A stretch of DNA of 64,000 nt, from contig NZ_KB911261.1 in the NCBI RefSeq assembly GCF_000383415.1, positions 124,001-188,000 of the forward strand, written 5' to 3'. Positions 28,019 through 43,064 of the stretch are shown piece after piece (position 1 is the stretch's first letter; the number at the start of each line of letters is the position of its first letter). The notes under the pieces were generated by a model. That model saw nothing but the letters and a program-made list of their open reading frames with translations, was not told the origin of the DNA and searched no databases. This stretch comes from Hyphomicrobium zavarzinii ATCC 27496 (GTDB lineage: Bacteria; Pseudomonadota; Alphaproteobacteria; Rhizobiales; Hyphomicrobiaceae). Made by a program: the position numbers and the translations under genes.

Positions 28019-28277
28019 CGGATTCACTCCTTTGAATATATTTTATTGATCTCGCACGGTCCTCGACGTGTTGGGCGCAATGCCCGCAAGTAGCGTGTGT
28101 CTCGGATTTTCCGTGCTTGCAGCGGGCATCGGCCAGCTTGGAGATCTAACGTCGAGGCGGGCGGTTGGTTCCTCTCGGAAATACGCTGTTCGCATGCTTT
28201 GCGTTGCTTAACGAACTGCGCATCCGGTGCGGCATTGCGCGATGTTCTCCCGAGCGCGACAATGCTGCGTGTCACAC

Positions 28278-30532: not shown

Positions 30533-30830
30533 CACAGGGCCGCGGATGGCGCCGATGACGCCCGGGCGCTTCGAGCCAAGAAATTCTCGTGTCGCGCCGC
30601 TATTGGCGCGCAATCCCCGCGCTGCCCCGATCATCAAAAAATGTGCCCCGTCCGTGCTTTCATTCCGCGCTGTCGCGTGCTGCTCGCTCGTCACACTCTC
30701 TCATTCGATGAGCCCGTGCTTCCCCAAGCACGGGCTGCTTCTCGGAACCGCCCCTTTCGCCATGCGTTGATGCGGCGGCTGGGTGAGTCTGAAGCCTGGC
30801 CCATTTGAAATGGAAAGAGGAGTATAATCA

Positions 30831-31229: not shown

Positions 31230-31524
31230 CGAGCGCCCAGGCGAGGCGAGCCAGGACGGAGCAATCACCATATTCGTTGTTGTCTTATATGCCATGATGG
31301 TCATTATGACGTTTGGCGTCCTCGCTTGGTTCGTCCATAGCGAAAGCGACTGATCGATCGTCGATCTTCGGCGGCAGCCGCGCTCTCGCGCGCCGCTCGC
31401 GCCGATCTGGCAATCCACGCAACCGTTTTTCGGGCAGTACGGGCCTCGGCCACTCCCGAAATCAATTGGCACGGGGGTGCGCTGTCTCTTGAATATCCCG
31501 CTTCTCACGAACGAGCAGGCTTCC

Positions 31525-33357
31525 ATGACTGCTGAACAGCGTCCTGCTCAACCGCTCGATTTCGCCGTGATCGGCAACGGCCGCATCGCCGCGCTTCTCG
31601 ACCGCTCCGCCCGCATCGTGTGGTGGTGCTTCCCGCGTTTCGACGGAGATCCGGTGTTTTCGCGGCTCCTCGCCGGAGACGAGGAGAAGGGCTTCTGTGA
31701 CGTGGTTGTGGAAGGGGCCGTTCGCACGCGGTCTGCCTATCTGCGCAATACCGCCATCCTCGAGACCGTGATCGAGGACAACAGCGGCAACGGTGTGCGT
31801 ATCATCGATTTCGCGCCGCGCTACCCGCGCTTCGAGCGCATGCTTCATCCCGCGCAGATCATCCGGCGCATCGAGCCCATCGGCCTGCCGCGCATAAAAA
31901 TTCGTGTGCGCCCCACGTTCAACTACGGCCAGCCGCGCCCCGCGCAAGTGGTCGGCTCAAACCACATCCGCTACAGCGGCGGCGAGATCACGCTGCGTCT
32001 CACGACGGACGCGCCACTCTCATACATCGTTCACGAAACGGCTTTTGCGCTCGCCCGTCCGGTGACGCTGGTGCTCGGCCCCGACGAGTCGCTCGAAGCA
32101 GCGGCGGACACGGTTTCCCGCGAAGCGCTCGAAAGGACGCGCGACTACTGGCTCGGCTGGGTGCGCGGTCTCGCGGTACCGCTCGACTGGCAAACGGATG
32201 TCATTCGCGCCGCCATCACGCTTCAACTCTGCACCTTCGACGAGACCGGCGCCATCGTCGCCGCACACACGACCTCGCTGCCTGAGGCTCCGGGAACCCA
32301 GCGCACGTGGGACTATCGCTACTGCTGGCTGCGTGACGCGTATTTCGTGATCATGGCGTTGAACCGGCTCGGTGCGACGCAGTCGATGGAAGCGTATCTC
32401 GACTACATCACCACGCTCGCGGTCGGCTCGGAGGGCACGCTGCGGCCGGTCTACGGCATCGTGCACGATCAGCCTTTGGACGAGAGCGTGGCCGAGCATC
32501 TGCCGGGATTCCTCGGCATGGGGCCTGTGCGCGTCGGCAATCAGGCAGCCGAGCAGATCCAGCACGATTCCTGGGGCAGCGTGATCCTCGGGGTCTCGCA
32601 AATGTTCATCGACCAGCGTCTGCCGCGCATGGGTGACGAGGCGCTTTACCGGCGGCTCGAGGTTCTCGGCCGTCATGCGATGCGCGTGTTTCTCGAACCC
32701 GATGCGGGTATCTGGGAATATCGCGGGCGCCTGCGCATCCACACGCATTCGGCCACCATGTGCTGGGTCACGCTCGACCGGCTCGGCCGCATCGCGGCGC
32801 TGCTCGGGCTTTCGGGCGACGCGGAGCAGTGGCGGCGCCAGGCGGACACCGTTCGGACCGAAATCCTCACGCGGGCCTGGAGCTCGAAAGTGGGCGCGCT
32901 GGCCGGCGCGCTGGATCAGGACGAGCTGGACGCAAGCGTGCTGCTGCTGCCGGAGCTCGGCCTCATCTCGGCGCGTGATCCGCGCTTTCTCAAGACGTTG
33001 GACACCATCGGCGGCCAGCTCGGCCGCAATGGCTTCATGCTGCGCTATACCAACGACGATTTCGGTGCTCCGGAAACGTCGTTCCTCGCCTGCCAGTTCT
33101 GGTACATCGATGCGCTGACCGCGGCCGGACGCGTGGAGCAGGCGCGCGAGTTGCTCGACGATCTCCTCAGTCGGCGCAATGCCTTCGGGCTTCTTTCCGA
33201 GGATATTCACCCGACCACGGGCGAGCTTTGGGGCAACCTGCCGCAGACCTATTCCATGGCTGGGATCGTGAATTCCTGCATGAACCTCTCGCGAAATTGG
33301 GCCGATGCGTGGCCCCGCTCACCCGCGCCGGAACCCAGCGCGACCTCAAGCGTTTGA
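31525..33357 (+). CDS. Glycoside hydrolase family 15 (glucoamylase/trehalase-like)
   Basis: The product has about 610 residues with an N-terminal trehalase-like beta domain (DFAVIGNGRIAALLDRSARIVWWCFPRFDGDPVF) and a GH15 (alpha/alpha)6 barrel: GTQRTWDYRYCWLRDAYF (general-acid region), AEQIQHDSWG, THSATMCWVTLDRL, and GLLSEDIHPTTGELWGNLPQTYS with the likely base glutamate. It hydrolyses terminal alpha-glucosides; GH15 enzymes include trehalases of mycobacteria. It heads a block with otsA and otsB, which suggests trehalose turnover. There is no signal peptide, so it is cytosolic. The ATG at 31525 matches the family start; a GTG at 31477 is an alternative. Confidence 0.88.
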   Translation: MTAEQRPAQPLDFAVIGNGRIAALLDRSARIVWWCFPRFDGDPVFSRLLAGDEEKGFCDVVVEGAVRTRSAYLRNTAILETVIEDNSGNGVRIIDFAPRYPRFERMLHPAQIIRRIEPIGLPRIKIRVRPTFNYGQPRPAQVVGSNHIRYSGGEITLRLTTDAPLSYIVHETAFALARPVTLVLGPDESLEAAADTVSREALERTRDYWLGWVRGLAVPLDWQTDVIRAAITLQLCTFDETGAIVAAHTTSLPEAPGTQRTWDYRYCWLRDAYFVIMALNRLGATQSMEAYLDYITTLAVGSEGTLRPVYGIVHDQPLDESVAEHLPGFLGMGPVRVGNQAAEQIQHDSWGSVILGVSQMFIDQRLPRMGDEALYRRLEVLGRHAMRVFLEPDAGIWEYRGRLRIHTHSATMCWVTLDRLGRIAALLGLSGDAEQWRRQADTVRTEILTRAWSSKVGALAGALDQDELDASVLLLPELGLISARDPRFLKTLDTIGGQLGRNGFMLRYTNDDFGAPETSFLACQFWYIDALTAAGRVEQARELLDDLLSRRNAFGLLSEDIHPTTGELWGNLPQTYSMAGIVNSCMNLSRNWADAWPRSPAPEPSATSSV

Positions 33358-33444
33358 TCTACGGGACCAATTTCGGCAATAGCCGCAAGGCGGTCACAAA
33401 CAGAGTGAGATACAGCGTTTGCCCTCGGGCACGCGGAGGCGGGC

Positions 33445-34974
33445 TTGAGACGGATTGTTCTCGTATCAAATCGGGTGATGGAGCTGCGCAAAGCCGCGCA
33501 AGCGGGCGGCGTCGCCGTTGCGCTTGCCGAACTTCTGCGCGAGCGGCCGGGCCTGTGGTTCGGATGGAATGGAAAGGTCTTCGAAGAGCACGACAGCACC
33601 GACATTCCCGAACTCCGGACCGCGAAATCCGCGGGACGCAGCGCGATTGCAACGCTTCCGCTGACGGCGGCGGAGCATCGCGACTACTATCTCGGATACT
33701 CGAATTCCGTCCTCTGGCCGGTATTTCATAACCGGCTGGATCTCGCGCAATTCGATGCCGGTTTCTACGCTCGATACATCGGTGTGAACGAGCGTTTCGC
33801 CCGCGCGCTCCGCCCCCTCATCCAGCCCGACGACATCATCTGGATTCACGACTACCACCTCATTCCGCTTGCGGCAGAGCTGAGACGGGCGGGCGTGGAC
33901 AATCCGATTGGATTCTATCTGCACATCCCCGTGCCGCCTTCGCAGACGTTTCTCGCCATTCCAGAGTATCGCGAGCTGGCACGCGCCCTCACCGCTTACG
34001 ACCTCATCGGGTTGCAGACGCAGGCGGATGTCGCAAACCTCATCCAGTTCCTGGAGGACAGCGTCTCGGGGCGCATCCTGCAGGATGGGCGCGTCAGTGC
34101 CTTCGACCATCGCCTCTCGATCAAGCGCTTTCCCGTCGGCATCGACGCGGACGTGTTTGCGGGTGGGGCGCCCGAGGAAAAGCTCGTGCAGGCGACCGAA
34201 GGCGCGGACCGCATCATCGGCGTGGACCGCCTCGACTACTCGAAAGGCCTTCCCCAGAAATTCCGTGCGTTCGGACGCTTCCTCGAAAAGTATCCCGAGT
34301 ACCAGCGCAAGGTCGTGCTCTCGCAGATCGCGCCGCCAACGCGCGAGAGCGTGGAAGCCTACACCGACATCCGCCAGACGCTGGAAGCGCTGTCAGGCAA
34401 GATCAACGGCATGTTCGGCGAGCTCGACTGGGTGCCGATCCACTACATCCATCGCTCCGCCCCGCGGGACAAGCTTCGAGACGTCTATCGCGGCTCGCGC
34501 ATCGGATTCTTCACGCCGCTACGGGATGGCATGAACCTGGTATCCAAAGAATATGTGGCCTCACAGGACCCGGCCGATCCGGGCGTGCCAATACTGTCGC
34601 GCTTCGCAGGGGCGGCGGAGCAGCTCGTGGATGCTCTGATCGTCAATCCCTACAACATCGAGGAGATCGCGGACGCGATCAAAACGGCCCTCGAAATGGA
34701 CAAATCCGAGCGGATCGATCGCTACAACCGGCTGATGGCGGTGATCCGGGCTTACGACTCCGCCACGTGGTCATCGTCATTTCTCAACACGCTCGAAGCC
34801 ACTGCACGCGAGCGGTCTCTGTCGTTCGCACCGTCCAACGCCTCGATCCGCTCCTCCATGGACAAGCTCGCGAGAAGCTCGCGCCGCACGTCCCGGCCGC
34901 CGGGAGACAGCTTTCTGAAAACGCCTTCCAATCGCGACAAATCGCACAAGACCCAACCGAGCAGACCGGAATGA
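33445..34974 (+). CDS. otsA: Trehalose-6-phosphate synthase
   Basis: OtsA joins UDP-glucose and glucose-6-phosphate to trehalose-6-phosphate. The 509-residue product has the GT20 pattern: IVLVSNRV, GGVAVALAELL, IWIHDYHLIPLAAELR, GFYLHIPVPPSQTF, RFPVGIDADVF, GVDRLDYSKGLPQKFRAF, and the nucleotide-sugar site TPLRDGMNLVSKEYVA. It has about 35 extra, basic and serine-rich C-terminal residues compared with E. coli OtsA. The start is TTG at 33445, five bases after GGAGG. It lies between the GH15 gene and a PfkB kinase, with otsB following. Confidence 0.95.
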   Translation: MRRIVLVSNRVMELRKAAQAGGVAVALAELLRERPGLWFGWNGKVFEEHDSTDIPELRTAKSAGRSAIATLPLTAAEHRDYYLGYSNSVLWPVFHNRLDLAQFDAGFYARYIGVNERFARALRPLIQPDDIIWIHDYHLIPLAAELRRAGVDNPIGFYLHIPVPPSQTFLAIPEYRELARALTAYDLIGLQTQADVANLIQFLEDSVSGRILQDGRVSAFDHRLSIKRFPVGIDADVFAGGAPEEKLVQATEGADRIIGVDRLDYSKGLPQKFRAFGRFLEKYPEYQRKVVLSQIAPPTRESVEAYTDIRQTLEALSGKINGMFGELDWVPIHYIHRSAPRDKLRDVYRGSRIGFFTPLRDGMNLVSKEYVASQDPADPGVPILSRFAGAAEQLVDALIVNPYNIEEIADAIKTALEMDKSERIDRYNRLMAVIRAYDSATWSSSFLNTLEATARERSLSFAPSNASIRSSMDKLARSSRRTSRPPGDSFLKTPSNRDKSHKTQPSRPE

Positions 34975-35032
34975 CGCACGGCGCGTACAGAGGCGCAGTT
35001 AGGCCCGCAATCCAAAGGCGGAGATCGGCCTC

Positions 35033-36127
35033 ATGAAAGCTCTCTGCGTCGGCGGCGCCATGATCGACACGATCGCCATCATCGAGAGCTCCGCCATCGA
35101 GCGCATGGAGCTGCTCAATGCCGGCACCTCCTTCCTGCTGCTCGAAGAGGGGCGCAAGACGGAAGCACTCGAAGTCTCGACCCATTGCGGAGGCGGCGCG
35201 ATCAACACGGCCGTGGCGCTGGCGCGCCTCGGCGTCACGTGCTCGGTCTTGATCAAGCTCGGGGCGGATCTGCGCGCCGAGCAAATCCTGGCGCGTCTGG
35301 CCGATGAAGGCATATCCGTGTCATGGGTCTCACGCGATTCGCGCGCGCCGACCGGCGCCTCCGTCCACGTCTCTTCCCACGACCGCAACGCGGCGGTTTT
35401 CACGTTCCGCGGCGCGAACACGCTGCTTGCCCCTCCCGATCTTCACGACGGCGCGTTCGAAGTGGATCTCGTCTACATCGCAAACCTTTCAAATGAGGCG
35501 GCGACCTGCTTTCCGCTGATCGTGGAGAAGGCCAAGCGCGCCCGTGCGCTGGTGGCAGCCAATCCCGGCCTGCGCCAGCTTCATGCCCATGGCGACGCTT
35601 TCAAGGAGACGCTGCCGCATCTCGATATCCTCGCCCTTAACCGGCGCGAGGCGGAGGAAGTCCTGATCCTGCTCGACGCACCCAGGAGCGACGAGAGCGC
35701 GCCTCTGACCTATCCGACGAACGTGAGGCTTCCGCCGCTCGCCGAGTGCGGCCTCAAGCATGAAGGGCGCAGGATGAGTGTCCGCAACTTCCTTCGTGCG
35801 CTGATGGACCGCGGCGTCGGCTCGGTCGTGCTGACGGACGGGCGCGATGGGGCCTTCGCGGCGTCCGGCGATCGCATGATCTATTGTCCGGCGCACGAGG
35901 CAGAGGTGGCGGGCACGGCGGGTGCCGGCGATGCGTTCGCGTCCACTTTCTCGGCGTATCTTGCAGACGGCGGAGACGCGGAAGCCGCGATCCGCGCCGC
36001 AACGATCAACGCCGCAGGCGTGCTGCAGCACGTCGATACGCAAACGGGGCTGATGCGGCGTGCCGATCTCGAAAAATTCCTGAGCAGCAAGAAATCGATA
36101 CCAAATGTGATAGGCTGGCCACTGTGA
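35033..36127 (+). CDS. PfkB/ribokinase-family sugar kinase
   Basis: This 364-residue kinase has the PfkB signature regions: N-terminal VGGAMIDTIAII and THCGGGAINTAVALARLG, and C-terminal VVLTDGRDGAF and AGTAGAGDAFASTFSAYL with the catalytic aspartate in GAGDAF. An insertion of about 35 residues (around 215-250) before the ATP site is longer than in ribokinase. It is placed between otsA and otsB, 58 bases after otsA and 104 before otsB, so it may phosphorylate glucose or another sugar released from trehalose. The substrate is inferred from context only. Confidence 0.87.
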   Translation: MKALCVGGAMIDTIAIIESSAIERMELLNAGTSFLLLEEGRKTEALEVSTHCGGGAINTAVALARLGVTCSVLIKLGADLRAEQILARLADEGISVSWVSRDSRAPTGASVHVSSHDRNAAVFTFRGANTLLAPPDLHDGAFEVDLVYIANLSNEAATCFPLIVEKAKRARALVAANPGLRQLHAHGDAFKETLPHLDILALNRREAEEVLILLDAPRSDESAPLTYPTNVRLPPLAECGLKHEGRRMSVRNFLRALMDRGVGSVVLTDGRDGAFAASGDRMIYCPAHEAEVAGTAGAGDAFASTFSAYLADGGDAEAAIRAATINAAGVLQHVDTQTGLMRRADLEKFLSSKKSIPNVIGWPL

Positions 36128-36231
36128 ACCTGCCGATGGCCATATCAACGTCATGTTCCAAAGAGAAGAGGCTCGCACGGATGTCCGGAGCGGCATCCTT
36201 CTGACACGCTGAACGAGGTTAGAAGAGAACG

Positions 36232-37047
36232 ATGGTAGCGGAGAAAATACCGCCCTTGCGGCCGCGTCTCAGCACGTGCACGAACTCCATCCTCGCCAAT
36301 CCCGGTGCATTTGCGCTGTTTCTCGATGTGGACGGGACTTTGCTCGAGCTTGCCGCGACTCCAAGAAGCGTGCGCGTGCCGGATGGGCTCAGCGACCTTC
36401 TCGGGCAGCTCACCGGGCGCCTGGACGGCGCGGTGGCGATCATTTCGGGCCGCCTGATCTCGGAGATAGACCAGATCCTTTCGCCGCTGAAGCTCACGGC
36501 GTCCGGCGTACACGGGGCGGAGCTGCGCAAGGCGCCCGATCGCGACATCGAGCGGGTGACACCGGTTCTTCCGCTGGAGATCGTCGAAGAGATGCGCCGG
36601 CTCGCGGCGCGCATTCCCGGCGTGATCGCAGAGCCGAAGGGACCTGGCCTCGCCATCCATTATCGTCTCGCCCCTCATGCGGAGGCCGACATTCTCGCGG
36701 TGATCGAGGATTTTCTCGACCGGCACGCCGGCGCGTTCGAGCTTCTGCCCGGAAAGCGGCTCTACGAAATCATCCCGTCCGGTCTTTCGAAGGGAACCGC
36801 GCTTGCGGCCCTTGCGTCGCTGCCAGCCTTCCGTGGCCGCGTTCCCATCATGATCGGAGACGATATCGGCGACGAAACGGCTTTCGCGGCCGCCGAGGGC
36901 ATGAAAGGCTTTGGGCTGCGTGTCGCCGGCGAGCATTACCACGAGGAGATGGCGGACTTCTCCGGTCCCCGTTCGGTGCTCACGTGGCTGGAACGGATTG
37001 CAGGGGCTACGCAGCACCCTGCGGAGCGAGCCCGCTCCCTCTTTTGA
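36232..37047 (+). CDS. otsB: Trehalose-6-phosphate phosphatase
   Basis: OtsB removes phosphate from trehalose-6-phosphate. The 271-residue HAD-family protein has the nucleophile motif FLDVDGTLLELA (about residues 28-39), motif II IISGR, the OtsB-type GVHGAELRKAP, the lysine motif GLSKGTALAAL, and GDDIGDETAF. It is the last gene of the trehalose block. With OtsA it completes trehalose synthesis, a usual osmoprotectant route. Confidence 0.94.
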   Translation: MVAEKIPPLRPRLSTCTNSILANPGAFALFLDVDGTLLELAATPRSVRVPDGLSDLLGQLTGRLDGAVAIISGRLISEIDQILSPLKLTASGVHGAELRKAPDRDIERVTPVLPLEIVEEMRRLAARIPGVIAEPKGPGLAIHYRLAPHAEADILAVIEDFLDRHAGAFELLPGKRLYEIIPSGLSKGTALAALASLPAFRGRVPIMIGDDIGDETAFAAAEGMKGFGLRVAGEHYHEEMADFSGPRSVLTWLERIAGATQHPAERARSLF

Positions 37048-37444: not shown

Positions 37445-37637
37445 TGCGTGTGGTCTCCACTATGATCTTGCGTGATCTGCGGGGTTAACGCCCGGCGGCA
37501 CGCAGGGTTCCCACGCGACGCCTACGGAGGGGTCTGCGCGGCCTTGCACGCTTCTGAGCAAAAGCCCCTTGGCGTCAGCATTTCTGGGGATGCGACCCAG
37601 GCGACATTGACCCGCCTCATTGCTGCTTTTAGAACGC

Positions 37638-38495: not shown

Positions 38496-38622
38496 CCGCC
38501 CTCCAGCTTCTCGAAGTGCTCCCTTCGTCCGGAACCATCGGGCGCGACGAGCCGTTGCTTTCACCAGATGCGCGCTGCGAACGCACGCGCGCCTGCAGCA
38601 ATCGGAACGCGGAGGTCACATC

Positions 38623-40502: not shown

Positions 40503-40746
40503 CGTTCGCGTACCTCTTTCTGTTCCAGATTTTTGTTTTCTATCAATGGGATTTATGTCCCTGAAAATGGACCAAAGCATGACCCTCCGTCCAATTTCGC
40601 GCTCCTGACAGCGTTCCTTCAGCGCGGGCGGAAGAAAATTTTTGCTTTCTCCGCGATCTTTCCCTGGTGATCGGCGTTTGATCATCACGACCAGTCATCG
40701 TGACAGTCAGGGGCCTCCGGCGTGGCGAGCCGCAGGCCCTTCCCTT

Positions 40747-41811
40747 GTGCCTCAATGGATCGCGAAATTGCCCGTCATCACAGAACACGGCGCGAAGGTG
40801 CTCCCGAGCGTGGAGATCGACAGCTATAACCTCGAGATCCGCGACGAGGAGGGCTTCGTCGGCGATCGCGCCAGCCACGGCGCATTCAAGAGCATCATCG
40901 AGGAGTGGCGCGAACCCTTGCGCAAGCTCGGCGCCGATCCACTCGGCGACGTGCCGATCGAGGATGTGAGCAAGAAGCAACTCGATGCCCTGCTCGCCGA
41001 CGGAGATCCGGAAGCCGGCGGACTGGTCCACAGCGCGATCGAGGCGTTTGCTAAAGAGCTGGATCACGTGATCCGCCGCTTCCTGAAGAGCGCGAGCTGG
41101 CGCGATACGGAAGCGATCGTGATCGGCGGAGGCTTCCGAAAGAGCCGTGTTGGAGAGCTCGCGATCGGACGAACTGCCGTGCTCCTCAAGGCAGGCGGCA
41201 TCGACATCGATCTCAACCTCATTCGCAACCATCCGGACGAAGCGGGCCTAATCGGCGCGGCGCACCTCATGCCCTCCTGGACGCTCGAAGGCTTCGACGG
41301 CATCCTCGCGGTCGACATCGGCGGCACGAACATCCGCGCCGGTGTCGTGGAGCTCAACCTCAAGAAATCCTCGAAGCTCGAGAAGGCGAAGGTGTGGAAA
41401 TCCGAGCTCTGGCGCCACGGCGACGAGAAGACGAAGCGCGACGAGGCGGTGGACCGCCTCATCGACATGCTCAAGGATCTCATCAAGGCTGCCAGCAAGG
41501 CGAAGATCAACCTGGCACCTGTGATCGGCATCGGATGCCCAGGGCTCATCCGGCCGGACGGCTCGATCGAAACCGGCGCTCAAAATCTACCGGGCAACTG
41601 GGAGACGAAAAGCTTCAATCTTCCCGCTTGCCTCAAGGAAGCCATTCCGGAGATCGGGAAGCACGAGACGGCCGTGGTGATGCACAACGATGCCGTCGTG
41701 CAGGGGTTGAGCGAGCTTCCGGTGATGCGCACCTACGATCACTGGGGCGCGCTGACGATCGGCACGGGGCTCGGCAACGTGCGCTTCACGACGCGCCATG
41801 ATCGCAGCTAG
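40747..41811 (+). CDS. Circularly permuted ROK-type sugar kinase-like protein
   Basis: This protein of about 354 residues carries ROK kinase motifs in a rotated order. The C-terminal ROK motif IVIGGG (124-129) and AGLIGAAHL (166-174) come first, followed by the N-terminal phosphate-binding motif VDIGGTNIRAG (from 189), the catalytic HNDA (from 313) and GTGLGN (339-344) at the end. The usual ROK zinc motif CxCGxxGCxE is absent. It may phosphorylate glucose or another hexose; the substrate is unknown. The GTG start at 40747 is a best guess, since the frame stays open to 40642 with TTG alternatives. A terminator follows. Similar-looking proteins occur in rhizobial genomes as far as I recall. Confidence 0.75.
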   Translation: MPQWIAKLPVITEHGAKVLPSVEIDSYNLEIRDEEGFVGDRASHGAFKSIIEEWREPLRKLGADPLGDVPIEDVSKKQLDALLADGDPEAGGLVHSAIEAFAKELDHVIRRFLKSASWRDTEAIVIGGGFRKSRVGELAIGRTAVLLKAGGIDIDLNLIRNHPDEAGLIGAAHLMPSWTLEGFDGILAVDIGGTNIRAGVVELNLKKSSKLEKAKVWKSELWRHGDEKTKRDEAVDRLIDMLKDLIKAASKAKINLAPVIGIGCPGLIRPDGSIETGAQNLPGNWETKSFNLPACLKEAIPEIGKHETAVVMHNDAVVQGLSELPVMRTYDHWGALTIGTGLGNVRFTTRHDRS

Positions 41812-41838: not shown

Positions 41839-41864
41839 AGCCGGGCGCGCTGCGCCCGGCTTTG
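41839..41864 (+). terminator. Intrinsic terminator after the ROK-type gene
   Basis: AGCCGGGCGC (41839-41848) and GCGCCCGGCT (41852-41861) form a 10-bp GC-rich stem with a GCT loop followed by TTT. It lies between convergent genes, 28 bases after the ROK-type stop. Confidence 0.8.
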
Positions 41865-41883: not shown

Positions 41884-42381
41884 TCAAGCAGCCTGCTCGG
41901 CGTCCTTGTTGACGGAGCCGCGTGCGATCTCAGTCAACAGCGTGTCGGCGTGGTGCTCCTCCTTGAGATTCTCGGCCAGAAGCTTGGCGGCTTCAGTATA
42001 GCCGAGATCTTTCGCCCACTCGACGAGGGTGCCATAGCGGCAGATCTCGTAGTGCTCGACGGCCTGCGCAGAGCTGATGATGCCGGCGTCGAGCACGCGC
42101 TCGTCGTCGATCTCATCCATGTGCTCCTTAGCCTCGCCGATGATGCCCTCGATGGCGTCGCATTTCTTGCCGCGCGCCGGCACTTTGATCAGCTTGAACA
42201 CCTTCTCGAGGCGATCAACCTGCCCTTCCGTCTCCTTCTGATGCGCTTCGAGCGCCTTCTTGAGGTCGGCGTTGTCTGCCTTGCTCACCATTCCGGGCAG
42301 GGCCTTCAGAATCTGCTTTTCGGCGTAATAGATATCCTTGAGGGTCGCTACGAAGAGATCCTCCATCGTTTTTACTGACAT
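41884..42381 (-). CDS. DUF892 (YciE-type) ferritin-like protein
   Basis: This 165-residue protein belongs to the YciE/YciF DUF892 family of ferritin-like four-helix bundles: LFVATLKDIYYAEKQILKALPGM, EAHQKETEGQVDRLEKVF, AVEHYEICRYGTLVEWAKDLG and LKEEHHADTLLTEIA. The Glu/His residues EKQ, E/H of HQKETE, EHYE and EEHHAD are the expected di-metal ligands. The ATG at 42381 follows GGAG by six bases; the longer frame to 42426 is not needed. The family is stress-induced in other bacteria, and its catalytic role is not settled. A divergent paralogue starts at 42558. Confidence 0.9.
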   Translation of the reverse strand: MSVKTMEDLFVATLKDIYYAEKQILKALPGMVSKADNADLKKALEAHQKETEGQVDRLEKVFKLIKVPARGKKCDAIEGIIGEAKEHMDEIDDERVLDAGIISSAQAVEHYEICRYGTLVEWAKDLGYTEAAKLLAENLKEEHHADTLLTEIARGSVNKDAEQAA

Positions 42382-42557
42382 GCTTGGCTCCATTTGCTCG
42401 CGGGGTTGTATTGGACTGCTCAACACGCGAGATCATCGTCTGTTCCCGCTTACCCCAACCGAAAAACAAGGGCCGGCCGCTCGCGGCAGAGGAACCTCTC
42501 CCCTCGCTGTTGCGTTACCTCCATCGTGCGATGCAATAGCGAGACAGCGAGCCCAAC

Positions 42558-43064
42558 ATGCAGGAATTCGAGCGCGTCTACATGCGCACGCTGCGTCACA
42601 TCTACGACACCGAGAAACAGCTCATCGCTTCGATCCGGATGCTCTCGTCATCGGTCACGAACCTCAAGCTGATGAGCGCGCTCAGAGAGATCGAGGCCCA
42701 ATCGCAGAGCCAGGCGACGCGTATCGAAGGGATTTTCGACACGCTGTATCTGGAAGCGCGCGGCGAAGCGTCTTGGGCGACCACAGCGCTGCTGCGAGAA
42801 GCGTGGGATTCGGCTTCGAGCCGCCCGGAAAGCGGCACGCGCGGATGCGCGGCAGCGTTGCTTGCCATCAAGCGCTACGAGATCACTCTCTATGAAGCGC
42901 TCCTGCGCTGGTCGGAGCAGTACGAATTCGACGAGATCATTCCCAACATCCGCCGCTCGATTGCGGAAGAACTCGTGCAGGCGAGTATTCTCTCTGAGCT
43001 TGCTTTCGGCGACGATGCTGCTGACGAGGCGCTCGTTCATACGGAGCGCGGCGCACTACATTGA
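42558..43064 (+). CDS. DUF892 ferritin-like protein (divergent paralogue)
   Basis: The 168-residue product has the same helical pattern as the neighbour: YMRTLRHIYDTEKQLIASIRM, REIEAQSQSQATRIEGIF, AIKRYEITLYEALLRWSEQY and AEELVQASILSELA. Several metal-ligand positions differ: the HQKETE site is EAQSQSQ here and EEHHAD is EELVQA, so metal binding may be impaired. It is divergent from the intact copy across a 176-base gap. It may be a degenerate or structural partner of the first. Confidence 0.82.
   Translation: MQEFERVYMRTLRHIYDTEKQLIASIRMLSSSVTNLKLMSALREIEAQSQSQATRIEGIFDTLYLEARGEASWATTALLREAWDSASSRPESGTRGCAAALLAIKRYEITLYEALLRWSEQYEFDEIIPNIRRSIAEELVQASILSELAFGDDAADEALVHTERGALH

Follow-up and report, generated by a model that had tools for sequence, protein, structure and literature searches.

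The window, i.e. the whole 64,000-nt stretch of Hyphomicrobium zavarzinii DNA analysed here, carries a gene for a circularly permuted protein of the ROK fold, in which the half that ends an ordinary ROK protein precedes the half that begins one. The permutation is established computationally, and the combined assignment of ROK fold and circular permutation can be regarded as very nearly certain. It is carried by motif order, profile-profile comparison and predicted structure. Many soil bacteria retain this rearranged protein, in numerous cases close to genes of trehalose metabolism.

Gene and motif order

Translation of 40747–41811 (354 residues; this numbering is used throughout) places IVIGGG at 124–129 and AGLIGAA at 166–172, ahead of DIGGTN (190–195), HNDA (313–316) and GTGLGN (339–344), and the stop codon lies ten residues past GTGLGN. 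The initial annotation, which had described ROK-end motifs in front of DIGGTN and a protein ending shortly after HNDA and GTGLGN, is borne out on both counts by the translation and, for the motif order, by an alignment of 64 sequences. The ordinary ROK order (DxGGT...ND...GTGxG...GGG...AGxxG) is found neither in the window protein nor in the 64-row alignment, both having the rotated order instead. We take GGG of the first half to be the adenosine motif and, in the second half, DIGGTN to be phosphate 1, GTGLGN phosphate 2 and HNDA to contain the catalytic Asp.

The frame, end and motifs first assigned to the gene stand, but its start, given as the GTG at 40747, probably does not. An in-frame TTG at residue 8, 21 bases after the GTG, is common to all seven upstream regions inspected from the window's genus (and absent from both regions inspected from another genus of the same family), and because of this conservation within the genus the gene likely starts at 40768 rather than at 40747. 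The genome carrying the window is 4.65 Mb in size.

Table 1 Features of the window in and around the permuted ROK-fold gene (coordinates within the window).
Feature	Position	Strand	Remarks
GH15 trehalase-like / glucoamylase-family gene	31477–33357	+	trehalose cluster
otsA-like trehalose-6-phosphate synthase gene	33445–34974	+	Glyco_transf_20 over cut-off; TIGR02400 508.1 bits, under cut-off 564.85
PfkB-family sugar kinase gene	35033–36127	+	between otsA and otsB
otsB, trehalose-6-phosphate phosphatase gene	36232–37047	+	TIGR00685 over cut-off
Promoter-like element GATCTTTC-N11-GCGTT	40655–40678	+	upstream of permuted gene
Permuted ROK-fold protein gene	40768–41811	+	probable TTG start; 347 aa, or 354 aa from GTG 40747
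First half, residues 14–183	40786–41295	+	matches C-terminal half of ordinary ROK; HGAxxLP, GFxGD, GGG, AGLIGAA
Second half, residues 185–350	41299–41796	+	matches N-terminal half of ordinary ROK; DIGGTN, CPG, QNLPG, HNDA, GTGLGN
Possible intrinsic terminator	41840–41863	+	GC-rich inverted repeat, then TTT, directly after stop; read by eye
DUF892 gene	41884–42426	-	directly after permuted gene
DUF892 gene	42558–43064	+	divergent from DUF892 gene at 41884–42426
Exact EcfG motif	28148–28172	-	
Exact EcfG motif	30744–30768	+	
Exact EcfG motif	33330–33354	+	
Exact EcfG motif	37487–37511	-	
Exact EcfG motif	38531–38556	+	
Exact EcfG motif	42491–42516	+	

Rotation relative to ordinary ROK proteins

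The Pfam ROK profile (PF00480) matches residues 187–343 only, on profile positions 2–135 of 294 (40.1 bits; cut-off 22.9), while the NCBIfam BglK model places residues 58–173 on its positions 180–283. Pfam found no match for the first half alone at E 10, and its ROK score was no higher with the letters rotated (40.1 bits, now in two stretches), so profile-profile comparison was needed. The 64-sequence family was therefore compared by HHalign, with and without rotation, with 27 ordinary zinc ROKs chosen for having a zinc motif. Without rotation the result was a swapped pair of matches, residues 185–344 on ROK 4–139 (score 71.9) and residues 71–175 on ROK 202–299 (53.1). With the family rotated at residue 183, these were replaced by a single match of 286 columns spanning ROK 5–299, with a score of 104.7. 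A scan of 33 cuts peaked at 105.2 for cut 180, with 97–98 for cuts 132–168 and 53–82 for the others, except for the 104.7 at 183. The comparison with and without rotation, together with a peak at the predicted cut, supports the clean rotation of halves read initially from the motifs. Against five polyphosphate-type ROKs rotation gives no gain (84.5 linear, 84.1 rotated), as their C-terminal half is short and finds little counterpart in the first half of the permuted chain.

As modelled by AF2, the full chain has a mean pLDDT of 85.2 and a pTM of 0.84, and its residues 184–350 superimpose in VIA on residues 0–145 of 3r8e, a solved ROK protein (Z 10.1, 142 residues, 2.3 A). The first half folded separately has a mean pLDDT of 72.7 with poor ends; this model (fragment 10–175, i.e. 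protein residues 19–184) matches 3r8e 144–300 (Z 9.0, 146 residues, 3.7 A), and three of 998 chains reach Z 8 with it. In Foldseek the first-half model found nothing below E 0.001, the best two entries being a glucokinase and a ROK hexokinase. ROK repressors are also among the structural matches.

For the whole chain the best Foldseek match is human hexokinase II (HK2), a two-repeat eukaryotic enzyme of ordinary order. The likeness is distant: the VIA row places model residues 33–346 on HK2 288–686 with an rmsd of 33 A because two separate halves match, and is not a rigid superposition. The HK2 range presumably crosses the repeat boundary and covers parts of both repeats, which is what a rotation would lead one to expect.

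In one and the same solved ROK protein, the counterpart of each half is the opposite half, and the permuted order fits; neither two incomplete ROK domains nor an unrelated fold, the outcomes that would have spoken against the first reading, was seen in the predicted structures. The three kinds of permutation test use the same sequences and are not wholly independent.

Conservation and distribution of the permuted family

The family set comprises 64 distinct sequences: that of the window and those of 63 relatives (45.7–89% identity, each covering at least 270 query residues), two of which are incomplete (L030, ending at a contig edge, and L056). GGG 127–129, D190, G192, G193, N195, CPG 264–266, QNLPG 279–283 and HND 313–315 are present in all 64 rows of the alignment, and GTGLGN 339–344 in 63/63; GTG 339–341 is found in 63/64, the exception, L056, ending before that point. 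Other residues are family-specific: N28 (60/63), G39 (63/63), D40 (62/63), W222 (64/64), H224 (63/64) and R231 (64/64). The new termini are almost fixed, with H14 in 62/63, L19 in 63/63 and 7–40 residues following GTGxG (63 rows). A strict regular expression for the motif order is passed by 53 of the 64; the 11 failures (nine without D[IVL]GGT, L056, and L098 with an early chance 'ND') are resolved by the alignment, which shows the same order in those rows. As 64 distinct sequences keep it, the rotated order is evidently more than chance.

Fourteen named loci contain relatives (56–89% identity), the closest (86–89%) being Hyphomicrobium records and one Hyphomicrobiales bacterium. Matches occur in 17 of the 60 genomes nearest the window's genome (own included; one, L030, cut by a contig end) and in 53/347 genomes of the order sample (own included), 49 of them judged full-length from the match rows and four weak or partial (G130, G186, G258, G261). 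In the class sample 13/337 genomes match, 11 of them outside the order, and in the phylum sample 49/349, 17 at full length and 32 within residues 177–347 only, as with ordinary ROKs. Three genomes outside the class have full-length matches at 46–48% identity (G729, G866, G882). The survey of homologues proposed at the outset to date the permutation thus extends full-length relatives from the order to other alphaproteobacterial orders and to three genomes of another class; to judge from these sequences, the permuted family is old. The matches in G098, G493, G866 and G729 each have one internal stop as counted by the search.

Plasmid records with a match number 207 (204 at a coverage of at least 80%), from Rhizobium (111), Sinorhizobium (79), Shinella (9) and others (8). 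In three Rhizobium plasmids (L129, L133, L134) an otsB/permuted-gene pair lies within ~1.5 kb of repABC. The phage collection gave zero matches to the permuted protein, and a phage origin was set aside on this search.

The usual annotation is 'ROK family protein'; some entries are named 'hypothetical protein' or carry no annotation, and rotation is unmentioned. Plasmid entries from Sinorhizobium, Rhizobium and Shinella under the name 'ROK family protein' (for instance WQP24563.1 and WP_011654489.1) are members of the permuted family with ~53–62% identity to the window protein, although their annotation gives the family name only and no permutation. No description of this permutation was found in the literature searched, most subscription journals lying outside its reach.

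Zinc site, sugar site and closest ROK branch

The ROK family (PF00480) includes glucokinases, NAGK, NanK and the Mlc/NagC repressors. The permuted family shares its fold by halves and keeps DxGG, GxPG, ND, GTGxG, GG and AGxxG, but differs in having rotated halves, no zinc motif, no ExGH and residues of its own. CxCGxxGC, first reported as absent from the window protein, is found in 0/64 of the permuted family, and even the C.C pattern is present in 0/64 vs 27/27 zinc ROKs. The absence of the motif is not tied to permutation, since 5/5 ordinary-order polyphosphate-glucokinase-like ROKs are also without the motif. Loss of zinc as a result of permutation is accordingly not supported, ordinary-order ROKs lacking the motif being L096 and L112–L115 and, by pattern, L077 and L079.

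E.GH, the pattern of the ROK sugar site (ExGH), is found in 27/27 zinc ROKs, 0/64 of the permuted family and 0/5 polyphosphate-type ROKs, and a plain glucose kinase is therefore not assured. Of the 48 aligned columns that reach 95% conservation or more in zinc ROKs, the permuted family retains 20, mostly D, GG, GxPG, ND, GTGxG, GG and the D, G and G of the last helix, the rest being one Arg and two Gly in weaker parts; the kept ROK columns are mostly nucleotide, phosphate or catalytic positions. Neither the zinc-ROK columns E157 and H160 (ExGH) nor the cysteines are conserved, in an alignment that is weak around ROK 150–202. The residue pattern fits what would be expected of a functional phosphotransferase whose acceptor site has changed. 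The window's genome also carries an ordinary zinc ROK, so glucose phosphorylation may already be covered.

A tree of the nucleotide half was built from 13 of the 64 permuted rows, 10 (6 plus 4) of the 27 zinc ROKs and three Glk rows; ten further loci were tried as 'other', four yielding usable rows and six none. In this tree the permuted family forms one clade (98/94) and joins the zinc-less, ordinary-order polyphosphate-glucokinase-like ROKs (95/90), with a long-branch warning at the join. An earlier three-group tree was dropped as a guide to the closest ROK, because three groups can be joined in one way only. The polyphosphate-glucokinase-like ROKs (L096, L112–L115), of which 1woq is a solved relative, resemble the permuted family in lacking the zinc motif and ExGH, in the tree grouping and in the pattern NDA.[VMA]QGL (5/5 there, 49/64 in the permuted family and 0/27 zinc ROKs), but their motifs follow the ordinary order and their C-terminal half is shorter. 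In HHalign the nucleotide half scores 82.5 against this branch vs 70.5 against zinc ROKs, whereas the first half scores 52.1 against zinc ROKs and 14.8 against the polyphosphate-type branch. The window protein reaches 17 bits with the polyphosphate glucokinase model NF045942 (cut-off 250) and 29.6 bits with the ROK glucokinase model TIGR00744 (cut-off 260.35). L114, the sole member of L096/L112–L115 scanned, reaches 97.7 bits with NF045942 and is thus also under the cut-off of 250.

Gene neighbourhood and trehalose genes

A trehalose cluster (31477–37047; Table 1) lies upstream of the permuted gene on the same strand. The near neighbours of the permuted gene in the window are DUF892 and PRC-barrel genes and no trehalose genes; the distant copy in L098, too, has a DUF892 gene in its flank.

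otsB was identified in the flanks of 22/82 permuted-gene loci, in three arrangements: divergent at 149–302 bases (10 Shinella, 4 Rhizobium and two loci of one other genus), on the same strand at 53–634 bases (L023, L035, L101), and on the same strand at 3.1–3.8 kb (three Hyphomicrobium loci, the window among them). The remaining 60/82 have no otsB in the flanks examined, many of which are 1.5 kb only, and some loci repeat one gene. Nor was otsB found within 6 kb in S. meliloti, Bradyrhizobium sp. 195, Phyllobacterium zundukense or Sinorhizobium B11. Fourteen further stretches, some repeating earlier loci, contain otsB in six cases (one 9.5 kb away) and not in eight. Within the order sample, 47/49 genomes with the permuted gene also have otsB (PF02358), vs 141/298 of those without the permuted gene (Fisher 5e-12, relatedness not corrected).

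The two exceptions without PF02358, G120 and G131, have a gene for a Cof-type HAD-IIB phosphatase 48 and 33 bases downstream, respectively. Among the loci examined, such a gene adjoins the permuted gene only in L102 (also read as L156) and L140, and none was found within about 5 kb in four other genomes of G120's genus code. The two Cof-type HAD-IIB genes (L140:4454–5167 and L102:5819–6535) are 63% identical to each other, and 21/29 Cof-type HAD-IIB relatives among the matches listed sit in longer open frames (574–720 codons). In L102:45–4620 (G131), RbsB/RbsA/RbsC-like transporter genes and a DhaKL-type kinase gene lie upstream of the permuted gene, possibly a sugar or polyol operon pointing to the substrate.

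Clustering of neighbouring frames returned mostly shadow frames and pointed to otsB and DUF892. Pfam searches of 20 neighbours of 12 copies, on rough gene calls, revealed no common partner other than otsB. This context suggests stress-linked trehalose metabolism.

Upstream regions and the general stress response

The reported EcfG motif of R. etli is GGAAC-N16-CGTT (PMC3892343). Seventy distinct upstream regions (400 bases) of permuted genes were searched; they are related and not independent cases, and the counts carry no correction for relatedness. GGAAC-N15-18-[CT]GTT is found in forward orientation in 20/70 (shuffled mean 0.52, largest 3) and on the reverse strand in 4/70. Fifteen exact sites lie 80–140 bases before the HGA codon, and sites with 8–9 of the 9 letters are found within 60–190 bases in 49/70 regions vs about 2.2 in single-letter shuffles.

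None of the seven upstream regions of the window's genus has an EcfG-like site of 8–9 letters, and the exact motif was not found directly upstream of the window's permuted gene. The promoter-like element there (Table 1), as GATCTTTC-N11-12-GCGTT, was seen by eye in five of six upstream regions inspected from the genus. The pattern occurs once in the window (0.04 expected; 4/100 shuffles had one) and three times genome-wide (0 for the reversed control pattern). It is possibly a diverged EcfG-type promoter with differing -35 letters.

The window as a whole contains six exact EcfG motifs vs 1.32 expected. By reading, five of the six stand before a gene on the appropriate strand, otsA and a DUF892 gene being among these; that at 33330–33354, upstream of the otsA-like gene, is GGAAC-N16-CGTT, and no fitting gene was seen for that at 30744–30768. 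The six motifs suggest that the window may be a general-stress island. Nothing on the permuted protein was found in the literature searched for a ROK family with RpoE2, and the word 'ROK' is absent from the papers checked for it.

Proposed function and alternatives

The computations themselves show the homology, the rotated order, the invariance of the nucleotide and catalytic residues, the association with otsB and the EcfG-like promoters of many copies; enzymatic activity, its substrate and a link of the reaction to trehalose we infer. Taken as a whole, the reading proposed here, to which we give an even chance, is of a stress-regulated permuted ROK/ASKHA kinase acting near the trehalose branch. 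The new chain ends would fall in the loop that follows the phosphate-2 strand, and the permuted chain would fold into the same two-lobed kinase. The nucleotide and catalytic residues having the roles that they have in the ROK family, ATP or another phosphate donor would be bound between DIGGTN, GTGLGN and GGG, and the Asp of HNDA would act as general base on a sugar-type acceptor. The enzyme may act near the trehalose branch in the alphaproteobacterial general stress response, e.g. in supplying glucose-6-phosphate for OtsA.

That two ROK gene fragments were fused, or that the assembly is in error, is a general possibility only, and its probability is vanishingly small given that 64 distinct sequences, drawn from many genera and assemblies, all have this order within a single gene, and given one compact, confident AF2 model. 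An active permuted kinase with an acceptor unrelated to trehalose (another sugar, a polyol or a cofactor), the proximity of otsB then reflecting stress-gene clustering, is possible, if on balance doubtful. ExGH is without its E and H here, the L102 gene follows transporter and DhaKL-type kinase genes, 60 of the 82 loci have no otsB in the flanks examined and the near neighbours in the window are DUF892 and PRC-barrel genes, but the three arrangements of otsB near the gene and its presence in 47 of the 49 genomes with the gene argue for trehalose.

Because Mlc-type ROKs act in regulation, the protein could instead be a non-catalytic or regulatory ROK-like sensor of a sugar or sugar phosphate, e.g. 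trehalose-6-phosphate, as would be consistent with the replaced ExGH, the family's own conserved residues (N28, D40, W222, H224, R231) and the ROK repressors among the structural matches. The invariant nucleotide and catalytic set speaks against this, as does the report of no DNA-binding domain by Pfam and NCBIfam, and we consider it unlikely. Equally improbable in our view is a permuted polyphosphate- or ATP/polyphosphate-dependent glucokinase: the tree grouping (95/90), NDA.[VMA]QGL and the HHalign score of the nucleotide half point that way, yet long branches meet at the tree join, the NF045942 score is far under its cut-off (17 vs 250 bits) and the first half matches zinc ROKs and hardly the polyphosphate branch. 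Should the protein be a kinase, it and a neighbouring HAD-type sugar phosphatase (OtsB, or the Cof-type HAD in G120 and G131) might form an opposing pair setting the level of a phosphorylated sugar, e.g. trehalose-6-phosphate, under general stress, an arrangement that we regard as decidedly improbable.

Significance

Within the reach of the searches, this circular permutation of a central sugar-kinase fold, which is natural, old and widespread, seems to have escaped notice under the name 'ROK family protein'. Its existence suggests that a chain break immediately past the phosphate-2 region is tolerated by the ROK/ASKHA fold with the catalytic residues staying fixed and, as Pfam detects only half of the permuted protein, other permuted kinases may have been missed too. 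For rhizobia and their relatives, the permuted family offers a lead to a kinase in stress and trehalose physiology.
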